The notes under the pieces: model-generated
What the model saw: only the letters and a program-made list of their open reading frames with translations
Told to the model about the DNA's origin: nothing
Database searches by the model: none
NCBI GenBank assembly: GCA_020445605.1
Contig: JAGRGH010000031.1
Span: forward strand, 1 to 64,000
Source of the DNA: Chromatiales bacterium
GTDB taxonomy: Bacteria; Pseudomonadota; Gammaproteobacteria; JAGRGH01
Length of the DNA: 64,000 bases
Reading direction: 5' to 3'
Shown: positions 3,349 through 11,252 of the stretch, piece after piece
Numbering within the stretch: the stretch's first letter is position 1
How the letters are laid out: the number at the start of each line of letters is the position of its first letter
Program-made: the position numbers and the translations under genes

Positions 3349-3496
3349 GGGAATCTCTGCAAATTGCAGAGTTTCCCGCGGCACAGGGACGTGCCGCCAC
3401 AACGACGGCTGCAAGCCGTAGAAAATGAAAGAAAACGAAAAATCGCACTTTTTCGGGCTCAAAGCTCTGGCAATCCTTCGATGGATTGATCAGAGC
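3349..3496. repeat. Multi-hairpin intergenic repeat, copy A1
   Basis: Five consecutive inverted repeats: 3349-3377 (arms GGGAATCTCTGCA and TGCAGAGTTTCCC), 3378-3397 (GCGGCAC, loop AGGGAC, GTGCCGC), 3405-3419 (ACGGCT/AGCCGT), 3436-3455 (CGAAAAA/TTTTTCG) and 3464-3496 (GCTCTG/CAGAGC with inner AATCC/GGATT). The last hairpin runs over the TGA of the minus-strand GTPase gene at 3490-3492. Copy A2 at 53420 shares the first, second and fourth hairpins and the text GAAAATGA; copy A3 near 58.1 kb shares the fifth. The element fills the gap between the GTPase pair and rraA and may act in transcript termination or 3'-end protection. Confidence 0.8.
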
Positions 3497-4854
3497 TTCC
3501 CAAGGATACGTTTTCGCGCATCGGCGATCAGGGCATCGCGATCGGTTTCGTCAAGAATCCGGCGCACGACCTGCTTCGCACCGCCCTCGCCCCACGAGCG
3601 GCCGTCGGCGAGATAGCGCTGCGCCGCACGGCCGACCACGGTTGTCGTGTAGTACGCAACCGCACCCTGGGCCCCCGCGGTCAATACGGTCGACAATCCG
3701 CCCGTGCCGGCCTTGAGCAGCGACGCGACCAGGTGCACGACCCAGCTTGCCCCCATCAGCACGGCCATCTGCGCGGCGATCGTGCGCACCAGCGTTCCCG
3801 CTTCGCCCCGCGTCATGGGCAGTCCGTACAGGCGCGACAAATGCACAACCAGCGAACCGTCGGCCACGGCGGCCGCAACGAGATCGGCGACCGGCACCGG
3901 GTTCAGCGCCACCGCCACGCCCTTGCCGAGCGCCCAGCCATTGATGATCCGGTCCCCCGCCTCGCGACGGACCTCAACGATGCGCCGCGCAACGCGATCA
4001 GACAGTTCGCCCGCGAACAGGCTCGCGTTGAGCGCCGCAAGACTCTTGCCGTCGCGCTCGAGAATTTCCCACAGCCGTTCACGCAGGGCATCCATGGACG
4101 CCGCGGGCCTGCGCGTCGATTCACGCGCAATGCCCTGCGCATCACGCTCGACATAGACTCGCGGCGCGGGATGCGCAGCGGCTTCGATGACGTCCTCGGG
4201 TCGCACCAGCGGACGCAGCCGATCGACCACCGCGGCGCGCAATGCCAGCCGTTCCTCGCCCGGATAGTGATCGATCTTGTTCAGCACAACCAACACCGGC
4301 CGCGCCTGCTCGACGATCGACTTCAGTGCGCGGAACTCGGTATCGGTCAGATCGCCGTCGATGACGAACATCACCAGATCGCTGCGTCCGGCGACCTCGC
4401 GCGCGAGCGCCTCACGCGCCTCGCCACCCACTTCATTGATTCCGGGCGTGTCGATCAGCACCACCGCCCCGTCACGAACCTCGGTCCAGCTCGCATAGCC
4501 GGCCGATCGCGTCTCGCCGTGCAGGGCGCTGACCGAAAACCGCGCCTGACCCAGCAGCGCGTTGAGCAGTGCGGACTTGCCGACGCTGACCCGGCCGAAC
4601 ACCGCGATATGCACCTGCGCGTGTTCGATTTTCTCCAGCAGCCGGCGTACTTCGCCGAACTCCGGTTCGAGCTCACGCCGCAGGCCTTCCGGCACATTCG
4701 GGTCGTCGAGCAGATCGGTCAGCACATCGCGCGCACCGGCGAGATGCGCATCCCCCGCGCCCGGACCCGGCGTCGGTTCAGCGGCGTTCGTCTGGTCCGC
4801 GTGACTCGAGCGCCCACTGCGCCAGCGTTCGAGCACGCGATTGAATATCTTCAC
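3490..4854 (-). CDS. DUF697 dynamin-like GTPase (second of a tandem pair)
   Basis: 454 residues if read from the GTG at 4854. The GTPase core shows the P-loop GRVSVGKS at residues 87-94, the switch region GYASWTEV, G3 as IDTPGINE, and G4 as NKID. The C-terminal part (GWALGKGVAVALNPVPVADLV, then hydrophobic stretches VVHLVASLLKA and GAVAYYTTTVVG) is the membrane-associating DUF697/YcjF-like helical region. The frame stays open upstream, but that part is out-of-frame text of the preceding gene and has no family similarity. The start overlaps the upstream GTPase gene by 77 bases. Likely a membrane-remodelling or stress GTPase working with its neighbour; its physiological role is unknown. Confidence 0.8.
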   Translation of the reverse strand: MKIFNRVLERWRSGRSSHADQTNAAEPTPGPGAGDAHLAGARDVLTDLLDDPNVPEGLRRELEPEFGEVRRLLEKIEHAQVHIAVFGRVSVGKSALLNALLGQARFSVSALHGETRSAGYASWTEVRDGAVVLIDTPGINEVGGEAREALAREVAGRSDLVMFVIDGDLTDTEFRALKSIVEQARPVLVVLNKIDHYPGEERLALRAAVVDRLRPLVRPEDVIEAAAHPAPRVYVERDAQGIARESTRRPAASMDALRERLWEILERDGKSLAALNASLFAGELSDRVARRIVEVRREAGDRIINGWALGKGVAVALNPVPVADLVAAAVADGSLVVHLSRLYGLPMTRGEAGTLVRTIAAQMAVLMGASWVVHLVASLLKAGTGGLSTVLTAGAQGAVAYYTTTVVGRAAQRYLADGRSWGEGGAKQVVRRILDETDRDALIADARKRILGKL

Positions 4855-6265
4855 GGAATTGCCCTGCGAATTCGTCTGCGACCGGCGCCGCGCGCAACTC
4901 GCCACGCGTGGCGAGCACGTTCGAAACGGCACGACCAAAGGCATCGAAGATGAGCCCGTAGGCGACCGCATGCAAGAGCCCGCCCGCCAGGGTGCCGATG
5001 CCCGGAAATGCCTTGAAGGCGTTGCCCGTGATCGCGAGCCCCAGCGGCACCAGCGCCCGCGCGCGCCGCTGCACGCCGTCAATCAGACGCTCGATCTCGA
5101 GGTCGCGCACCGGCACCTCGTAGAGTTCCGCCAGCGCGCGGGTCAGCTGCACGGCCAGCACGCCCTGGATCGCGATGTCCGTGCCCGGCCCAACCGCGGC
5201 GAGCCCGCCGACCACCGCGCGCCGCGTATAGGTTCGCACGATCTCGCCGGCGCGACCGGCGCGATGCGCCGCGGCCGCCGTTTCGAGCCTGGCGCCGGCC
5301 AGCGCAAACACCGCCGTGTCGCGCTGGCGTTCGAGCAGGGCCGGCTCGGCGTCGATCGTCGCCTGCAACACGCCGCGCAGCGCATCGAGCCGGGCCGGCA
5401 GCGGCTGGTCGGATTGACGCTCGACACCATCGGCATCGACCTCGGTCACACGACGCACGGGCCGGGCACTGATCGGCGCAATCCGCACGCGATTTCCATA
5501 GCCCGCCAGCCGCTCGCCCAGTCGCGACACGATCGCCGCCTGCGCCGCATCGTCCAGGCGATCGGTCTTGTTCAGCGCCAGAACCACGGGCTTGTCGAGC
5601 GCCAGCAGCGCTTCCAGTGCCTGCCACTGCGTGCGCGTCAGATCACCGTCGGCGACATAGACGACCACATGCGCGCGCTGCGCCTCCTCGGCGGCCAGGC
5701 GATCGAACGCGACGCCGACTTCCGCCGAACCCGGCACGTCGACGACGATCACCTCGTCGCCACCACTGCGCTGCCAGTGGTACTCACGCCGCTCGCGGGT
5801 CGTGCCACCGGCAACGCCGGTCGGCGCATCGGCATCGGGAATCAGCGCGCCGATCAATGCGCTCTTGCCGGTGGAGATCTCACCGAACATCGCGATATAG
5901 AGCTTTCCGGCCGCGCGGCGGCGTTCCAGCTCATTGAGTTCCGCGCGCGCGGCGGCGACATCGACGCCGTGCCCGGCCGCCGCATCGATCGCCTGTGCAA
6001 GCGAGGCCTCGTCATGCACCGGCCGGCGGACCGGCGCACGTCGAACGGGCCGCAGGAGTTTCCAGACCAGCCACAGCGTCAGGCCAGCCAGCACACCACC
6101 GAGCGCATGGACGAGCCAGCGCACCCAGGCCGGAGCGGTCTGAAGCTCGCGCAACACGACGAGCCCCTGACGCGCGGTGTCGAGCAGCAGCGACAGCGCC
6201 ACGAGCCCACCGATCACGATGCCGAGGACCAGCAACAGACGGATTGCGCGGGCGTTCGACAGCAT
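4778..6265 (-). CDS. DUF697 GTPase with two N-terminal membrane helices (first of a tandem pair)
   Basis: 495 residues. Two hydrophobic segments (LLLVLGIVIGGLVALSLLL at 10-28 and a second near 52-70) anchor the N terminus. The GTPase domain follows: P-loop GEISTGKS at 128-135, GGTTRERREYHW (switch I), VDVPGSAEVG as G3 and LNKTDRLDD as G4. The C-terminal DUF697 region contains VGGLAAVGPGTDIAIQGVLA and ITGNAFKAFPGIGTLAGG. It heads the minus-strand GTPase pair and is divergent from the GMC oxidoreductase gene, with 132 bases between the two starts. G3 reads DVPG rather than the usual DTPG. Pairs of DUF697 GTPases could form hetero-oligomers like the bacterial dynamin pairs; this is inference. 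Confidence 0.82.
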   Translation of the reverse strand: MLSNARAIRLLLVLGIVIGGLVALSLLLDTARQGLVVLRELQTAPAWVRWLVHALGGVLAGLTLWLVWKLLRPVRRAPVRRPVHDEASLAQAIDAAAGHGVDVAAARAELNELERRRAAGKLYIAMFGEISTGKSALIGALIPDADAPTGVAGGTTRERREYHWQRSGGDEVIVVDVPGSAEVGVAFDRLAAEEAQRAHVVVYVADGDLTRTQWQALEALLALDKPVVLALNKTDRLDDAAQAAIVSRLGERLAGYGNRVRIAPISARPVRRVTEVDADGVERQSDQPLPARLDALRGVLQATIDAEPALLERQRDTAVFALAGARLETAAAAHRAGRAGEIVRTYTRRAVVGGLAAVGPGTDIAIQGVLAVQLTRALAELYEVPVRDLEIERLIDGVQRRARALVPLGLAITGNAFKAFPGIGTLAGGLLHAVAYGLIFDAFGRAVSNVLATRGELRAAPVADEFAGQFREDIQSRARTLAQWALESRGPDERR

Positions 6266-6397: not shown

Positions 6398-7855
6398 ATG
6401 ATCACCGATCTAGCGGCTGCCGGACGCAGCATCACGCGCGACTGCGACCTGCTGATCCTTGGCGCCGGTCCGGCCGGCATCACCACTGCGCTGGAACTCG
6501 CCCGCAAGGCGCCCGGCCTGGACATCGTGCTGGCGGAGGCCGGCGGATTCGAGCCGTCCACGCCAGCCGAACTCGATCTGTACGACGGCCCGTCGACCGG
6601 CAGCTCGCCGTATGCCATCTCGACCGCGCGCCTGCGCGGTTTTGGTGGCAGCTCCGGGCACTGGGGTGGCTGGTGCCGGCCGTTCGACGAGGTGGATTTT
6701 CTCCCGCGCGCGGCCGCCGGCGTACCGGGCTGGCCAATCGAACGCGACACGCTCAATCCGCATTACGTCGCGGCCCACGGCTGGCTGGAGATTCCGTCGC
6801 ACGACTACGATCCGGGAAACCTCAGCGCCGCGCTCAAGCGTCGGCTCATCGACCTCGACGCCAGTCCGTGGTTTCGCAACCGCCTGTTCCGCTTCAGCCC
6901 ACCGACGCGCTTCGCGACCCGCTATCGCGCGGACATCGAAGCGACGGCCAACATCGACTGCCGGCTCAACGCGGCGGCGATCGCATGGGGTGTCTCGGGA
7001 GACGCGATCGAAACCGTCACGCTGGGTGGCCTGCATGACTACACGCTGACCGTTCGCCCGCGGCGCGTGGTCATCGCCATGGGTGGAATCGAAAGCACGC
7101 GGCATCTGCTCCTGCTCCGGCAGCAGGGTTTCGGCGCCGCCGGACTGCATGGCGGATTCCTCGGCCGCGGCTTCGCCGATCACTTCGGCTACCGTCCGGG
7201 CATCGTGCATCTGCCGGCCGAGCGCATCTACCAGCGAATCGATGACGATTCGGGCGACGTCATGCCGGTGATATCGCCAACGCCCGAGGCGCTGGAACGC
7301 ACCGGCTGGAACAACAGCTGCATCATGCTCGACGTGATCGCGGACGGCCCCGAGCTGCCGCGCAGCTATGCATCGAATCAGCTGTTCGGACTGTCGTCGT
7401 CCGAGAGTTGGTCGTACCGCGTCACCATGATTCTCGAACCGCGGGTCAACGAGGACAGCCGACTCGAACTCGCCGACGAACGCGATGCCCTGGGACTGCC
7501 GCGAACGCACATCGCCTGGGAGATCGACCCGCGTGCCTACGACTCGGCGGCGGCAACCTTTGAGCGCTTCGCTCAGGAACTCGGGCGCCTCGGACTCGGT
7601 CGTGCGCGCATCGACCCCCGCTACCACGAGATCTGGCGCAAACGGGTCACGCCGGTCTACCACCACATGGGCACCTTGCGCATGGCCAAAGATGCCGGCC
7701 ATGGCGTGGTCGACACCGATCTGAAGCTGTTCGGCGGCGCGAATCTCTACGTGGCGAGTTCTGCCGTGTTTCCGAGCTTCGGCTACTCGAATCCGACACT
7801 GACGATCGTCGCGCTGGCGCATCGCCTGGCCGCACACCTGCGGGACCTCGCATGA
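6398..7855 (+). CDS. GMC-family FAD-dependent oxidoreductase
   Basis: 485 residues from the ATG at 6398. The dinucleotide fold is LLILGAGPAGITTALELA near residues 18-35, followed by GFGGSSGHWGGWCRPF, the FAD-binding loop of GMC enzymes. The C-terminal GMC domain is clear: HHMGTLRMAKDAG, VDTDLKLFGGANLYVAS, then FPSFGYSNPTLTIVALAHRL. Such enzymes oxidise alcohols, sugars or sterols. It has no signal peptide of its own, but the next gene, which overlaps its stop (ATGA), has a Tat signal, so it may be exported folded as a passenger, as in gluconate and fructose dehydrogenases. The frame is open for 519 more codons upstream; that stretch is antisense to the GTPase gene and was excluded. Substrate unknown. 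Confidence 0.88.
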   Translation: MITDLAAAGRSITRDCDLLILGAGPAGITTALELARKAPGLDIVLAEAGGFEPSTPAELDLYDGPSTGSSPYAISTARLRGFGGSSGHWGGWCRPFDEVDFLPRAAAGVPGWPIERDTLNPHYVAAHGWLEIPSHDYDPGNLSAALKRRLIDLDASPWFRNRLFRFSPPTRFATRYRADIEATANIDCRLNAAAIAWGVSGDAIETVTLGGLHDYTLTVRPRRVVIAMGGIESTRHLLLLRQQGFGAAGLHGGFLGRGFADHFGYRPGIVHLPAERIYQRIDDDSGDVMPVISPTPEALERTGWNNSCIMLDVIADGPELPRSYASNQLFGLSSSESWSYRVTMILEPRVNEDSRLELADERDALGLPRTHIAWEIDPRAYDSAAATFERFAQELGRLGLGRARIDPRYHEIWRKRVTPVYHHMGTLRMAKDAGHGVVDTDLKLFGGANLYVASSAVFPSFGYSNPTLTIVALAHRLAAHLRDLA

Positions 7856-8952
7856 CGACCCACTCCGATTCGCGTCGCAGCTTTCTGCATTTCTCGCTCG
7901 GCGCACTCACCGGCGCCGGCGGCGTCGGCGCGCTGTGGTGGATGCAGCCCGCGCGTGGTCCGTCGTATCAAGCGCCCACTGGTCTCGGCCCGGCCGCCGA
8001 CGCGGTGCTCGCCACACTCGAAGGCACCGAAGCGGTCGCGCAATGGGCCATCCAGGAGCACGCGGCCCTGCGTGTACCCGTCAGCGTTCTGGTCGAACAG
8101 CTGCGCACACGACTCGGCCTTACGGCCACCGAACAGCCGGATGCGCAGACCTTCACGAATGCCCTGCGCGCTTCGATCCGTGGGGATTTTGATCGGGGCG
8201 AACTGCTCGTCGTGCACCGCTGGCAGCTCAGTCACACCGAGGTGCTGACCGCCGTACTGCATCTGCACCTGATGGGCGGCGCGGCCCCGCCGGCATCAGC
8301 GCACCCGGAAACCGAAGCGGTCAAGGGACAGATTGCGGCCATCACGGAATGGGGACCGAAGTCGACCAGCGTCGGGAAGCCCGCCAACGAGCAGGCCGGC
8401 GGCTATTCGGCCTTCTGGTTTCATGGCGAGAACATCCCGCGCTGGGCGCAGATCGCGCTGGCGGGCGAGCGGCTCGAAACCGTGCACCGCAGCGGACTGG
8501 TCATTGCCCAGCTCAAGGGCGAGGTGCAGAAAAAAATCCTGTCGAAGCCCGGCAAACATCCATTCACGCTGCATGACGACAAGAACGGCGCCTGGCAGAC
8601 AATCGGAATGTTCATGGTCAAGCCCGCACCAGGATCGCCCGCCGCGAACGCGGCGCCGGGACTCTGCGAGGTCACGAACTGGGGGCCTCGCACCAGCGTT
8701 GCCGGAACGGTTGCCAATCCGCAGCACGATGGCTCCATGGGCCTGTGGATCGATGTGGCCTGCGCACCCAAACGAGTCCAGGTGCAATTCGGAAACCACG
8801 TCAGTACGGGCAACTTCCGCGGCCATGTCGTCACGACGCTGATTCCGGCCGATCAGCTCAAGCAGGCCGGGCGATATCCGCTGACACTGATCAACGCCGA
8901 TACCGGGGAACGGCTCGAGGTCGGCGAGTTCGTCGTGAGCGAGCATCCGTGA
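7852..8952 (+). CDS. Tat-signal partner protein with a duplicated Ig-like domain
   Basis: 366 residues. The N terminus has a twin-arginine signal (SRRSFLHF at residues 8-15, then a weakly hydrophobic glycine/alanine stretch). After a helical segment of about 100 residues come two copies of the same domain: one opening ITEWGPKSTSVGKPANEQ and one opening VTNWGPRTSVAGTVANPQ, each ending in a strand such as IGMFMV or VGEFVV. The fold looks IPT/Ig-like, but no named family was recognised. Position and Tat signal suggest the small, export-directing subunit of the GMC oxidoreductase, with which it shares an ATGA overlap. No CxxCH haem motif is present, so electron transfer would need another partner. 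Confidence 0.75.
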   Translation: MTTHSDSRRSFLHFSLGALTGAGGVGALWWMQPARGPSYQAPTGLGPAADAVLATLEGTEAVAQWAIQEHAALRVPVSVLVEQLRTRLGLTATEQPDAQTFTNALRASIRGDFDRGELLVVHRWQLSHTEVLTAVLHLHLMGGAAPPASAHPETEAVKGQIAAITEWGPKSTSVGKPANEQAGGYSAFWFHGENIPRWAQIALAGERLETVHRSGLVIAQLKGEVQKKILSKPGKHPFTLHDDKNGAWQTIGMFMVKPAPGSPAANAAPGLCEVTNWGPRTSVAGTVANPQHDGSMGLWIDVACAPKRVQVQFGNHVSTGNFRGHVVTTLIPADQLKQAGRYPLTLINADTGERLEVGEFVVSEHP

Positions 8953-9023
8953 CAGGGACGCCCGCGCCGCGCGCGCGGTTCGCACGCCGGCCCATCGCGT
9001 TCGACACCCGAGGGCGCGCGCAA

Positions 9024-11252
9024 ATGATCGGCATCCCGAATTTCGGCGCAAGTGCGATTGCAGCGCTGTGCTGGCTGGGCGGCGTCGGAGTCGCCCGGGC
9101 GGCCGACCCCGGCATCGTGTTTACCGACATCACGCAGGCATCGGGAATCCACTACACCGGGCCCACCTGGGGGGCCGCCTGGCGCGATTACGACGGCGAC
9201 GGCCTGCTCGATGTCATCATCAGCCGCCATCATTCGGAACCCAAAAGGCCGAGGCGCACACCACTCTCCCTGTACCGGAATCTCGGCGACGGTCGCTTCG
9301 AGGACGCTTCGAACCGACTTCCGAACGCACTGTTTCGTGATCTGCATGGCGCCGCCTGGGGTGACTTCAATGCCGACGGCAAACCCGACCTGCTCGTCGC
9401 GGCCGGGGGAAACCGCGGGGCTATCAAGTCCGCCGACCACATCCAGCACGCCGTCAAGAACCTGCTGCTCGTGCAGCACTCTAACGGCTTCGACAACCGC
9501 GCCGCGACACTCGGTATCGAAGCACCACGCCAGCGCGGCCGGCGTCCTGCCTGGATCGATGTCGACCTGGACGGAAGGCTCGATATCGTCTTCACGCAGT
9601 ACCAGCCGGATGACGCCGACGACATTGTCTATCGTCGCAACGGCGATGGTTTTTCGGCCTGCCCCAACGCATTACCCGAGATCACGTCGAGCCGCGGCCA
9701 GCGTGCGGCGCTGGAATTTCGCGGATTTGCCGACGATGCCCGTTATCTGGCATTCGCCGGGGATGCGGCGCCCGGTCGCCTGTACCGCGTGGGACCGCGC
9801 GGCCAGTGCCGGTTTGAGCTGATCGAGAAGCACAAGCACGTCCACGGCGCCGGCGATCTGGTCATCGCCGACCTCGACGGCGATCTCGCGTTCGATTACT
9901 TCACGCCAACCAGCGCAAGTTCAAGTTTCGTGGCGTCACCCGGTGCCCGCTGGCTGACGGTAGCGGTCATGCGGCCGACCACCGCAGCCAACATCTCCTT
10001 CGACACCGCCGGCCAGCCGGTAGCGTTTTCCATCACGCCCGCCGAGGGCGAGGACGGCTGGACGCATCCGGAGGATTCGCGCGTGTACCTCGGACGCGAT
10101 GGGCGGCATCCGGAGGGCCCGAGCTTCGACCTGGACCCACAGGCAGCCTGGATACGCGGCGCCCCAGTTACGGCGGCAGACGGCGACGCCCTGCGTATCA
10201 GCGTGGATCCGTCGACCGGGCGCTGGCAGCTGCAAGTCCGGCGAATCGAGCGCCAGTCGCTCTCGATCGATATGAAAGCGCCCGCTGCACTGACCGACGT
10301 CACACACGATCTCGACCCGGGCGAGGCTACCTGGGAACGGATCGACGCCTTTTACGTACAGGGCCACGAGGGCTGGCAGACGCCGGCGGACGATCTAGGT
10401 CTGGCGACCACACCGACCAGTTGCGCGGTGGCCGTCGCGGCGGATTTCGACAATGACATGGACCTCGATCTGTTTCTTGGTTGCCGTGACGGGCGCGGAT
10501 CGCGCGAGAACCGTCTGCTGGAAAACCGCAACGGACGCTTCGTCGCGATCACACCGCCCGGCCCCGTGCCACCGACCGGGCTGCTGGATTCGGTGACCAG
10601 CGCGGATTTCGACGGCGACGGGTTCGTTGATCTGATGCTGACCTATGGCGGCTGGCCGCAACGAGAGGCGGACCACGGGCCGGTCCAACTGCTGCGCAAC
10701 CAGGGCAACGCCAATCACTGGATCGAACTGGATCTCGTCGGCACCAGGAGCGCACGCGACCCATACGGCGCGCGGGTGTTCATGACCGCGGCCGGTCGCA
10801 CACAGGTGCGCATGTACACCGACGGTGGTCACGGCGCCGGCGCAAACGCGGCCCGCCTGCACTTCGGACTGGGCCCGAACACGGCGATCGAGGAAGTCCT
10901 CGTCCAGTGGCCCGATGGCACGCTGGAGTACTTCGATGGTCTGGGCATTGACGCGCTTGCCACGCTGACCGAAGGCACCGGTCGAGCCGCCACGCGCCCG
11001 GCGTTGATGACCGCAAGCTCGACGATCGCCGCGGACCGGGACTCGCGTTGGCTGTGTCTCGCGCCGCGGACGGACCCCGCCATCCGGATCGACTGGACCT
11101 TCGACGACATCGATCTGGAAGCCCACGCGGTCGCCACGCAACATCGCTTTGTGCGCACCGGCCCGACCGGCGTAAAGTGCACCGCCGTCGGCGCGGACGG
11201 CAGCCGCAGCGAGTCCACACGCAGCGTGCGCGTGGACCGCGGCAAACCCTGA
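9024..11252 (+). CDS. Secreted FG-GAP/VCBS repeat protein with ASPIC/UnbV domain
   Basis: 742 residues from the ATG at 9024, which begins a good Sec signal peptide (hydrophobic core then VARA, before ADPG). Calcium-binding FG-GAP/VCBS repeats are seen as DYDGDGLLDVIIS, DFNADGKPDLLVA, DVDLDGRLDIVFT, DLDGDLAFDYF, DFDNDMDLDLFLG and DFDGDGFVDLMLT, which fits a beta-propeller. The ASPIC/UnbV region follows (NHWIELDLVG, DPYGARVFM, LHFGLGPNTAIEEVLVQWPDG). A GTG at 8949 overlaps the stop of the Tat gene (GTGA) in the same frame and would add 25 residues before the signal; it may be the real start for coupling. Likely a periplasmic or surface member of the GMC-Tat unit. Confidence 0.85.
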   Translation: MIGIPNFGASAIAALCWLGGVGVARAADPGIVFTDITQASGIHYTGPTWGAAWRDYDGDGLLDVIISRHHSEPKRPRRTPLSLYRNLGDGRFEDASNRLPNALFRDLHGAAWGDFNADGKPDLLVAAGGNRGAIKSADHIQHAVKNLLLVQHSNGFDNRAATLGIEAPRQRGRRPAWIDVDLDGRLDIVFTQYQPDDADDIVYRRNGDGFSACPNALPEITSSRGQRAALEFRGFADDARYLAFAGDAAPGRLYRVGPRGQCRFELIEKHKHVHGAGDLVIADLDGDLAFDYFTPTSASSSFVASPGARWLTVAVMRPTTAANISFDTAGQPVAFSITPAEGEDGWTHPEDSRVYLGRDGRHPEGPSFDLDPQAAWIRGAPVTAADGDALRISVDPSTGRWQLQVRRIERQSLSIDMKAPAALTDVTHDLDPGEATWERIDAFYVQGHEGWQTPADDLGLATTPTSCAVAVAADFDNDMDLDLFLGCRDGRGSRENRLLENRNGRFVAITPPGPVPPTGLLDSVTSADFDGDGFVDLMLTYGGWPQREADHGPVQLLRNQGNANHWIELDLVGTRSARDPYGARVFMTAAGRTQVRMYTDGGHGAGANAARLHFGLGPNTAIEEVLVQWPDGTLEYFDGLGIDALATLTEGTGRAATRPALMTASSTIAADRDSRWLCLAPRTDPAIRIDWTFDDIDLEAHAVATQHRFVRTGPTGVKCTAVGADGSRSESTRSVRVDRGKP

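Follow-up and report, generated by a model that had tools for sequence, protein, structure and literature searches.

A GMC flavoenzyme and its overlapping twin-arginine partner as a probable hitchhiker export pair, with a partner family not found in current catalogues

Our analysis of the window (the 64,000-nucleotide stretch of DNA from a Chromatiales bacterium) shows that a gene for a GMC-family flavoenzyme (gene A) and the gene overlapping its 3' end (gene B), which encodes a protein with a twin-arginine (Tat) signal, form a conserved two-gene unit, and this conclusion is strongly supported. From the conserved linkage, the gene overlap, the co-varying distances of the two proteins, the pairing of a signal-less GMC enzyme with an RR-bearing partner, and the relatives BcGDH (Burkholderia cepacia FAD glucose dehydrogenase) and FDH (fructose dehydrogenase), we infer with a probability of roughly 0.75 that A and B make up a two-component exported flavoprotein, i.e., a Tat hitchhiker pair, in which complex formation, Tat dependence and location are all part of the inferred reading. 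The export pair itself is of a known type, and the novel element is the uncatalogued family of the partner. The original prediction had described a GMC oxidoreductase, a Tat-signal partner and an FG-GAP/ASPIC protein in a row, and both the open reading frames and the Pfam matches agree with this description. The features are as follows.

6398..7855, + strand: gene A, 485-aa FAD oxidoreductase of the GMC family, lacking a signal peptide (Pfam GMC_oxred_C; nearest solved relatives)
7661..7663, + strand: His422, presumed catalytic base, HxxGT motif (motif alignment to the His of BcGDH)
7790..7792, + strand: Asn465, presumed to complete the His/Asn pair (alignment of partner-linked GMCs)
7852..8952, + strand: gene B, Tat-signal partner, 366 aa (start ATG 7852)
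7852..7855, + strand: ATGA in which the stop of A overlaps the start of B (4-base overlap seen in 13 of 20 linked loci)
7852..7959, + strand: Tat signal region of B, residues 1-36, SRRSFLHF, no lipobox (motif reading)
7960..8286, + strand: residues 37-145 of B, the helical core, which carries the motif IRxDF...W.LS.TE and is matched by no family model (sequence profile; structure model)
8326..8655, + strand: first IPT/Ig-like 'WGP' domain of B (repeat alignment; IPT domains among the fold matches)
8656..8949, + strand: second IPT/Ig-like 'WGP' domain of B (structural matches; repeat alignment)
9024..11252, + strand: gene C, secreted FG-GAP/ASPIC (CRTAC1-like) protein, 742 aa (Pfam; alternative GTG start at 8949)

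Judged by its sequence, A is a sugar- or alcohol-oxidising flavoenzyme of the GMC family. The gene runs from an ATG at 6398 to a stop ending at 7855, and the Pfam match to GMC_oxred_C (E = 2.2e-21; 77.3 bits against a cut-off of 24.6) places the product within the family. A Rossmann GxGPAG motif occupies residues 22-27, and the C-terminal region holds both the catalytic His and the His/Asn pair by which GMC enzymes are recognised (presumed to be His422 and Asn465). Among the partner-linked GMCs aligned, His422 is identical in all, and the position of Asn465 is N in 11 of 15 and H or T in the remaining four. The solved structures nearest to A are BcGDH alpha and the FDH large subunit, with BcGDH (PDB 6a2u) scoring best. 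The C-terminal GMC region of pyranose 2-oxidase (PDB 8qve, 9fl2) is also related to A, more distantly than the BcGDH, gluconate and FDH dehydrogenases are, and we know of no Tat partner protein for that enzyme.

Gene B encodes a Tat signal, a helical core of about 105 residues and two C-terminal domains with a predicted IPT/Ig-like fold. The motif SRRSFLHF lies at residues 7-14, and the signal scores 16.3 bits, just under the NCBIfam profile cut-off of 16.7; the Pfam TAT_signal model is matched by two of the three long homologues (best E 7e-4). Thus, both the ATGA overlap and the division of labour that the original prediction had read here, an enzyme without a signal beside a partner with a Tat signal, are borne out. 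Apart from the weak Tat signal, B matches no family in Pfam and nothing over the cut-off in NCBIfam; sequence-profile searches of the PDB yielded nothing significant for the whole protein or for the core, and a plasmid search with B returned nothing.

The conservation of the pair was established by searching sets of 36, 369 and 398 genomes, whose kinship to the window genome is at class level or wider. The searches that uncovered the GMC neighbours used the partner, not the enzyme, as the query. Two full-length homologues of B (in G255 and G537; about 30% identity over the alignment) were found, and each directly follows a GMC gene, which it overlaps by ATGA as in the window. A first contig scan with a single sequence gave no match, and a scan with a three-row alignment matched only Gilvimarinus agarilyticus JEA5, which carries the same pair as G537. 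Partner profiles then led to stand-alone small proteins of 129-177 aa whose similarity to B is confined to the RR signal and the core 'I..DF......GW.LS.TE..L'.

In total, 21 core-bearing loci, the window included, were found in 19 genomes from two proteobacterial classes, and a GMC gene is the immediate neighbour in 20 of them; near-copies (G021/G169 and G1089/G1091) reduce the number of independent loci to about 18. The original prediction had proposed such a neighbourhood comparison as a test of its three genes, and the comparison upholds the link of the partner to the GMC gene. Since the window genome has just three GMC_oxred_C matches, chance adjacency is negligible. The GMC gene comes first in 14 linked loci (13 with the -4 overlap, one with a 16 bp gap), and the partner comes first in the other six, with gaps up to about 20 bp, so the linkage outlasts rearrangement. 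Two linked loci (G374, G449) belong to another class of the phylum. The distances among the GMC enzymes co-vary with those among the cores (Mantel test, Spearman rho 0.57, 0 of 2000 permutations as high), a permutation scheme that leaves shared species history in place. The GMC enzymes of the three pairs with IPT domains group in a single clade (100/100). The sole partner-core gene for which no GMC gene was found on the contig stretches read is that of G171 (L044:6216-6629).

The linked GMC enzymes have no signal peptide and start just ahead of the Rossmann motif, and the partners carry RR motifs, so the arrangement that characterises hitchhiker export, a signal-less catalytic subunit with an adjacent twin-arginine partner, is present in 20 of the 21 loci. 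The same absence of a signal on A would suit a cytoplasmic enzyme encoded next to a separate periplasmic sensor or binding protein B, whose IPT domains do resemble binding modules. Most partners, however, consist of a Tat signal and the core and nothing more, which leaves no part for a sensor to use; the linkage and co-variation of A and B are tight, and the nearest solved relatives of A are periplasmic dehydrogenases. We therefore regard a separate sensor as decidedly unlikely and retain the hitchhiker pair. In several of the small partners, the Tat signal is followed by a lipobox-like Cys (LSAC, LVGC, LSGC, VGGC), which suggests that they are membrane-anchored lipoproteins; B of the window lacks it.

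Fructose dehydrogenase is made up of a large GMC subunit, a small subunit encoded separately and a cytochrome subunit. Its large subunit (PDB 7w2j) is related to A, but the PDB sequence and fold searches gave no match of the core of B to its small subunit. BcGDH (gamma-alpha(-beta), PDB 6a2u) shares with A-B the GMC catalytic subunit, the separate Tat small subunit and the His/Asn pair. It differs in that the four Cys of A (16, 93, 188, 308) form no cluster for a 3Fe-4S centre, in that no multihaem cytochrome gene adjoins A-B, and in that no match of the core of B to BcGDH gamma was detected, either by sequence or by fold. Consequently, neither of the features that define DET-type FAD dehydrogenases (BcGDH/FDH), the 3Fe-4S cysteine cluster and the multihaem c subunit, is found here. 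In BcGDH, the gamma subunit is a Tat hitchhiker needed for the folding and secretion of alpha, and a His/Asn catalytic pair has been reported (PMC6719666). Export of this kind has also been described or invoked for other GMC pairs, namely in the conversion of glucose to gluconate by Collimonas (PMC12542777) and for verrucomicrobial GmcA/GmcB (PMC8630023).

Gluconate 2-dehydrogenase and other GMC enzymes with subunit 3 (PF13618) likewise pair a GMC enzyme with a small Tat partner in overlapping genes. Given this shared gene order, together with the size class of the small forms, the Tat signal and the GMC partner, B might be a divergent small subunit of the Gluconate_2-dh3 (PF13618) or FAD-SLDH (PF12318) family and the pair an ordinary sugar dehydrogenase. 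The comparisons make this unlikely. Neither family gave a Pfam match in scans that extended to E 10 with the long partners and to E 1 with the small ones; the FAD-SLDH profile matched nowhere in the sampled genomes, controls included. In hhalign comparisons with PF13618 members, only the RR/Tat signal aligned, and membership of B in PF13618 was rejected. The core likewise has no match, by sequence or by fold, among the BcGDH and FDH small subunits in the PDB. Thus, where the original prediction had seen the pattern of exported dehydrogenases such as gluconate dehydrogenase, the idea of export is supported by the linkage and the relatives, but B does not belong to the small-subunit family of that enzyme.

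The core also stands apart in predicted structure. Because Foldseek with whole B was swamped by generic Ig folds, the core was folded separately, and the model built with 19 aligned sequences (pLDDT 90.8, pTM 0.83) has four or five predicted helices and a beta hairpin. No model in Pfam or NCBIfam matched the core, and Foldseek against the PDB gave no match with E under 2; the solved BcGDH hitchhiker subunit was not among the matches. The best structural match, a J domain (Z 4.0 over 66 residues), was treated as noise. Since hhalign aligns Gluconate_2-dh3 members through the Tat signal only and no PDB fold matches significantly, the modelled core argues for a separate, uncatalogued partner family, an absent PDB match being no proof of a novel fold. 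A wider reading, which we find plausible but hold tentatively, is that the core defines a new family, possibly with a new fold, of Tat escorts or subunits for GMC flavoenzymes that is unrelated to the known hitchhiker subunits. Such a family would be modular: some members would be small and lipoprotein-like, and others would be fused to binding domains of the IPT, and perhaps also the PAN, type. It would position flavin oxidases at the cell envelope for the oxidation of surface glycans.

If several proteobacterial lineages share a partner family missing from the catalogues, the hitchhiker export mechanism would be broader than described. Such a family would give a sequence handle for periplasmic GMC enzymes without a signal of their own and would point to envelope-sugar oxidation as a candidate activity.

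Each of the three GMC_oxred_C matches in the window genome has an adjacent Tat-type partner. A second GMC gene (C51; L066:5917-7901, minus strand) has an ATGA overlap with a gene for a 221-aa partner with an RR signal. This partner ends in a stretch that resembles a PAN domain at a score below cut-off (PAN_4, 5.8e-5), and its similarity to the core motif is faint (hhalign E 0.007, probability 5%), insufficient for a homology call. In the third pair (G000:C54:69188-71484; L069, L065), a Gluconate_2-dh3 Tat protein precedes the GMC gene, with a 4-base overlap by coordinates. Three kinds of partner beside three GMC genes of one genome suggest that escort domains have been swapped or recruited repeatedly.

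Gene C, by comparison, was found beside the pair only in the window. Its product matches FG-GAP (1.3e-28) and UnbV_ASPIC (2e-13) in Pfam. The GTG at 8949, which the original prediction had allowed as a start, does overlap the stop of B and is possible, but it would place 25 extra residues before the signal; the ATG at 9024 is the likelier start, since it opens a Sec-like signal peptide and is preceded, at a distance of 9 nt, by a GAGGG stretch resembling a ribosome site. When C was compared by blastp with every reading frame in the sequence surrounding the other 20 loci, none of them yielded an FG-GAP/ASPIC homologue; the flanks vary and some contigs end near the pair, but downstream flank of several kb is present at the two other pairs with IPT domains. 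The only matches were C itself and the other ASPIC proteins of the window genome, three in number (C30, C47, C51), none adjoining a GMC gene.

These results bear on a three-component complex in which C joins A-B and replaces the cytochrome subunit, as the original prediction had proposed. In its favour, C is secreted and lies on the same strand with a 71 bp gap or the GTG overlap, and no convincing terminator beyond chance counts occurs in the B-C interval. Nevertheless, no C homologue was found near the other pairs, the IPT-bearing ones included, the further ASPIC proteins do not adjoin GMC genes, and the translation of C contains no redox motif. The absence of CxxCH that the original prediction had noted is confirmed (none in A or B and none visible in the translation of C), yet the propeller as a cytochrome substitute finds no support and was rejected, and we judge the three-component complex to be highly improbable. 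The original prediction had named missing linkage of the three genes in other genomes as its refutation, and by that standard the A-B part of the proposed unit holds and C falls outside it: with no homologue found at the other pairs, C is a neighbour and at most a lineage-specific accessory. Literature searches on ASPIC or UnbV with GMC returned nothing relevant.

The two WGP copies of B align with each other, and the structure model groups them with IPT/Ig-like domains. The top fold matches of B include the Ig domain of CGTase as well as IPT domains from MET and plexin (Z 8-10; rmsd large across both domains, 2.5 A across one), and the best single-domain matches of the second copy are CGTase 1ciu (Z 8.7) and SGBP-B 6e9b (Z 7.9). 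No family model covers the domain. Partial hits to the C-terminal region of B show that this domain of about 95 residues occurs in one or two C-terminal copies in other proteins. The carriers, named from a reading of their sequences, are an LTA-synthase-like phosphoglycerol transferase/sulfatase, a methyltransferase, an acyltransferase-SGNH-like protein and a short ORF (L011:6160-8631, L009:6531-7532, L029:4983-7274, L010:5608-6048), some of them amid polysaccharide genes. The IPT/Ig-like domains of B probably serve to attach the enzyme to glycans of the envelope or to some other partner at the surface.

In the proposed mechanism, A would fold and bind FAD in the cytoplasm, the helical core of B would bind A, and the twin-arginine signal of B would carry the folded complex through the Tat translocon. 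In the periplasm, A would oxidise a hydroxyl group by the His/Asn GMC mechanism, with quinone, a separate cytochrome or oxygen as candidate electron acceptors. B would remain as a subunit, its two IPT/Ig-like domains probably docking the enzyme in the window's lineage, and C would probably be a co-directional passenger or accessory cargo. Points counted against this model are the G171 gene, for which no GMC neighbour was found, the missing Foldseek match between the core and the BcGDH hitchhiker, the sub-cut-off Tat signal, and the shared species history that the permutations of the mirror test retain.

With regard to the substrate, genes of surface-glycan type lie beside several of the small pairs (XrtA-type amidotransferase, SDR epimerase, methyltransferase, acyltransferase, LPG_synthase_TM and nucleotide-diphospho-sugar transferase). 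Together with the IPT domain on phosphoglycerol-transferase-like and O-acyltransferase proteins, whose sequences resemble enzymes that modify envelope glycans, this neighbourhood hints at an exported sugar or an envelope-glycan hydroxyl as the substrate. Literature searches on GMC with exopolysaccharide and XrtA gave nothing relevant. One cluster recurs (L028:1584-8688, L024, L023, L043) and comprises LPG_synthase_TM, GMC, a small Tat partner, a methyltransferase, an SDR epimerase and an XrtA-type amidotransferase; it is possibly an undescribed envelope glycan or lipid pathway. The neighbours of the window pair (GTPases, Ppx/GppA) have no bearing on the substrate. Just upstream of the pair, on the minus strand at 3490-6265, lie two overlapping GTPase-like ORFs, the second of which matches MMR_HSR1/dynamin-like models.
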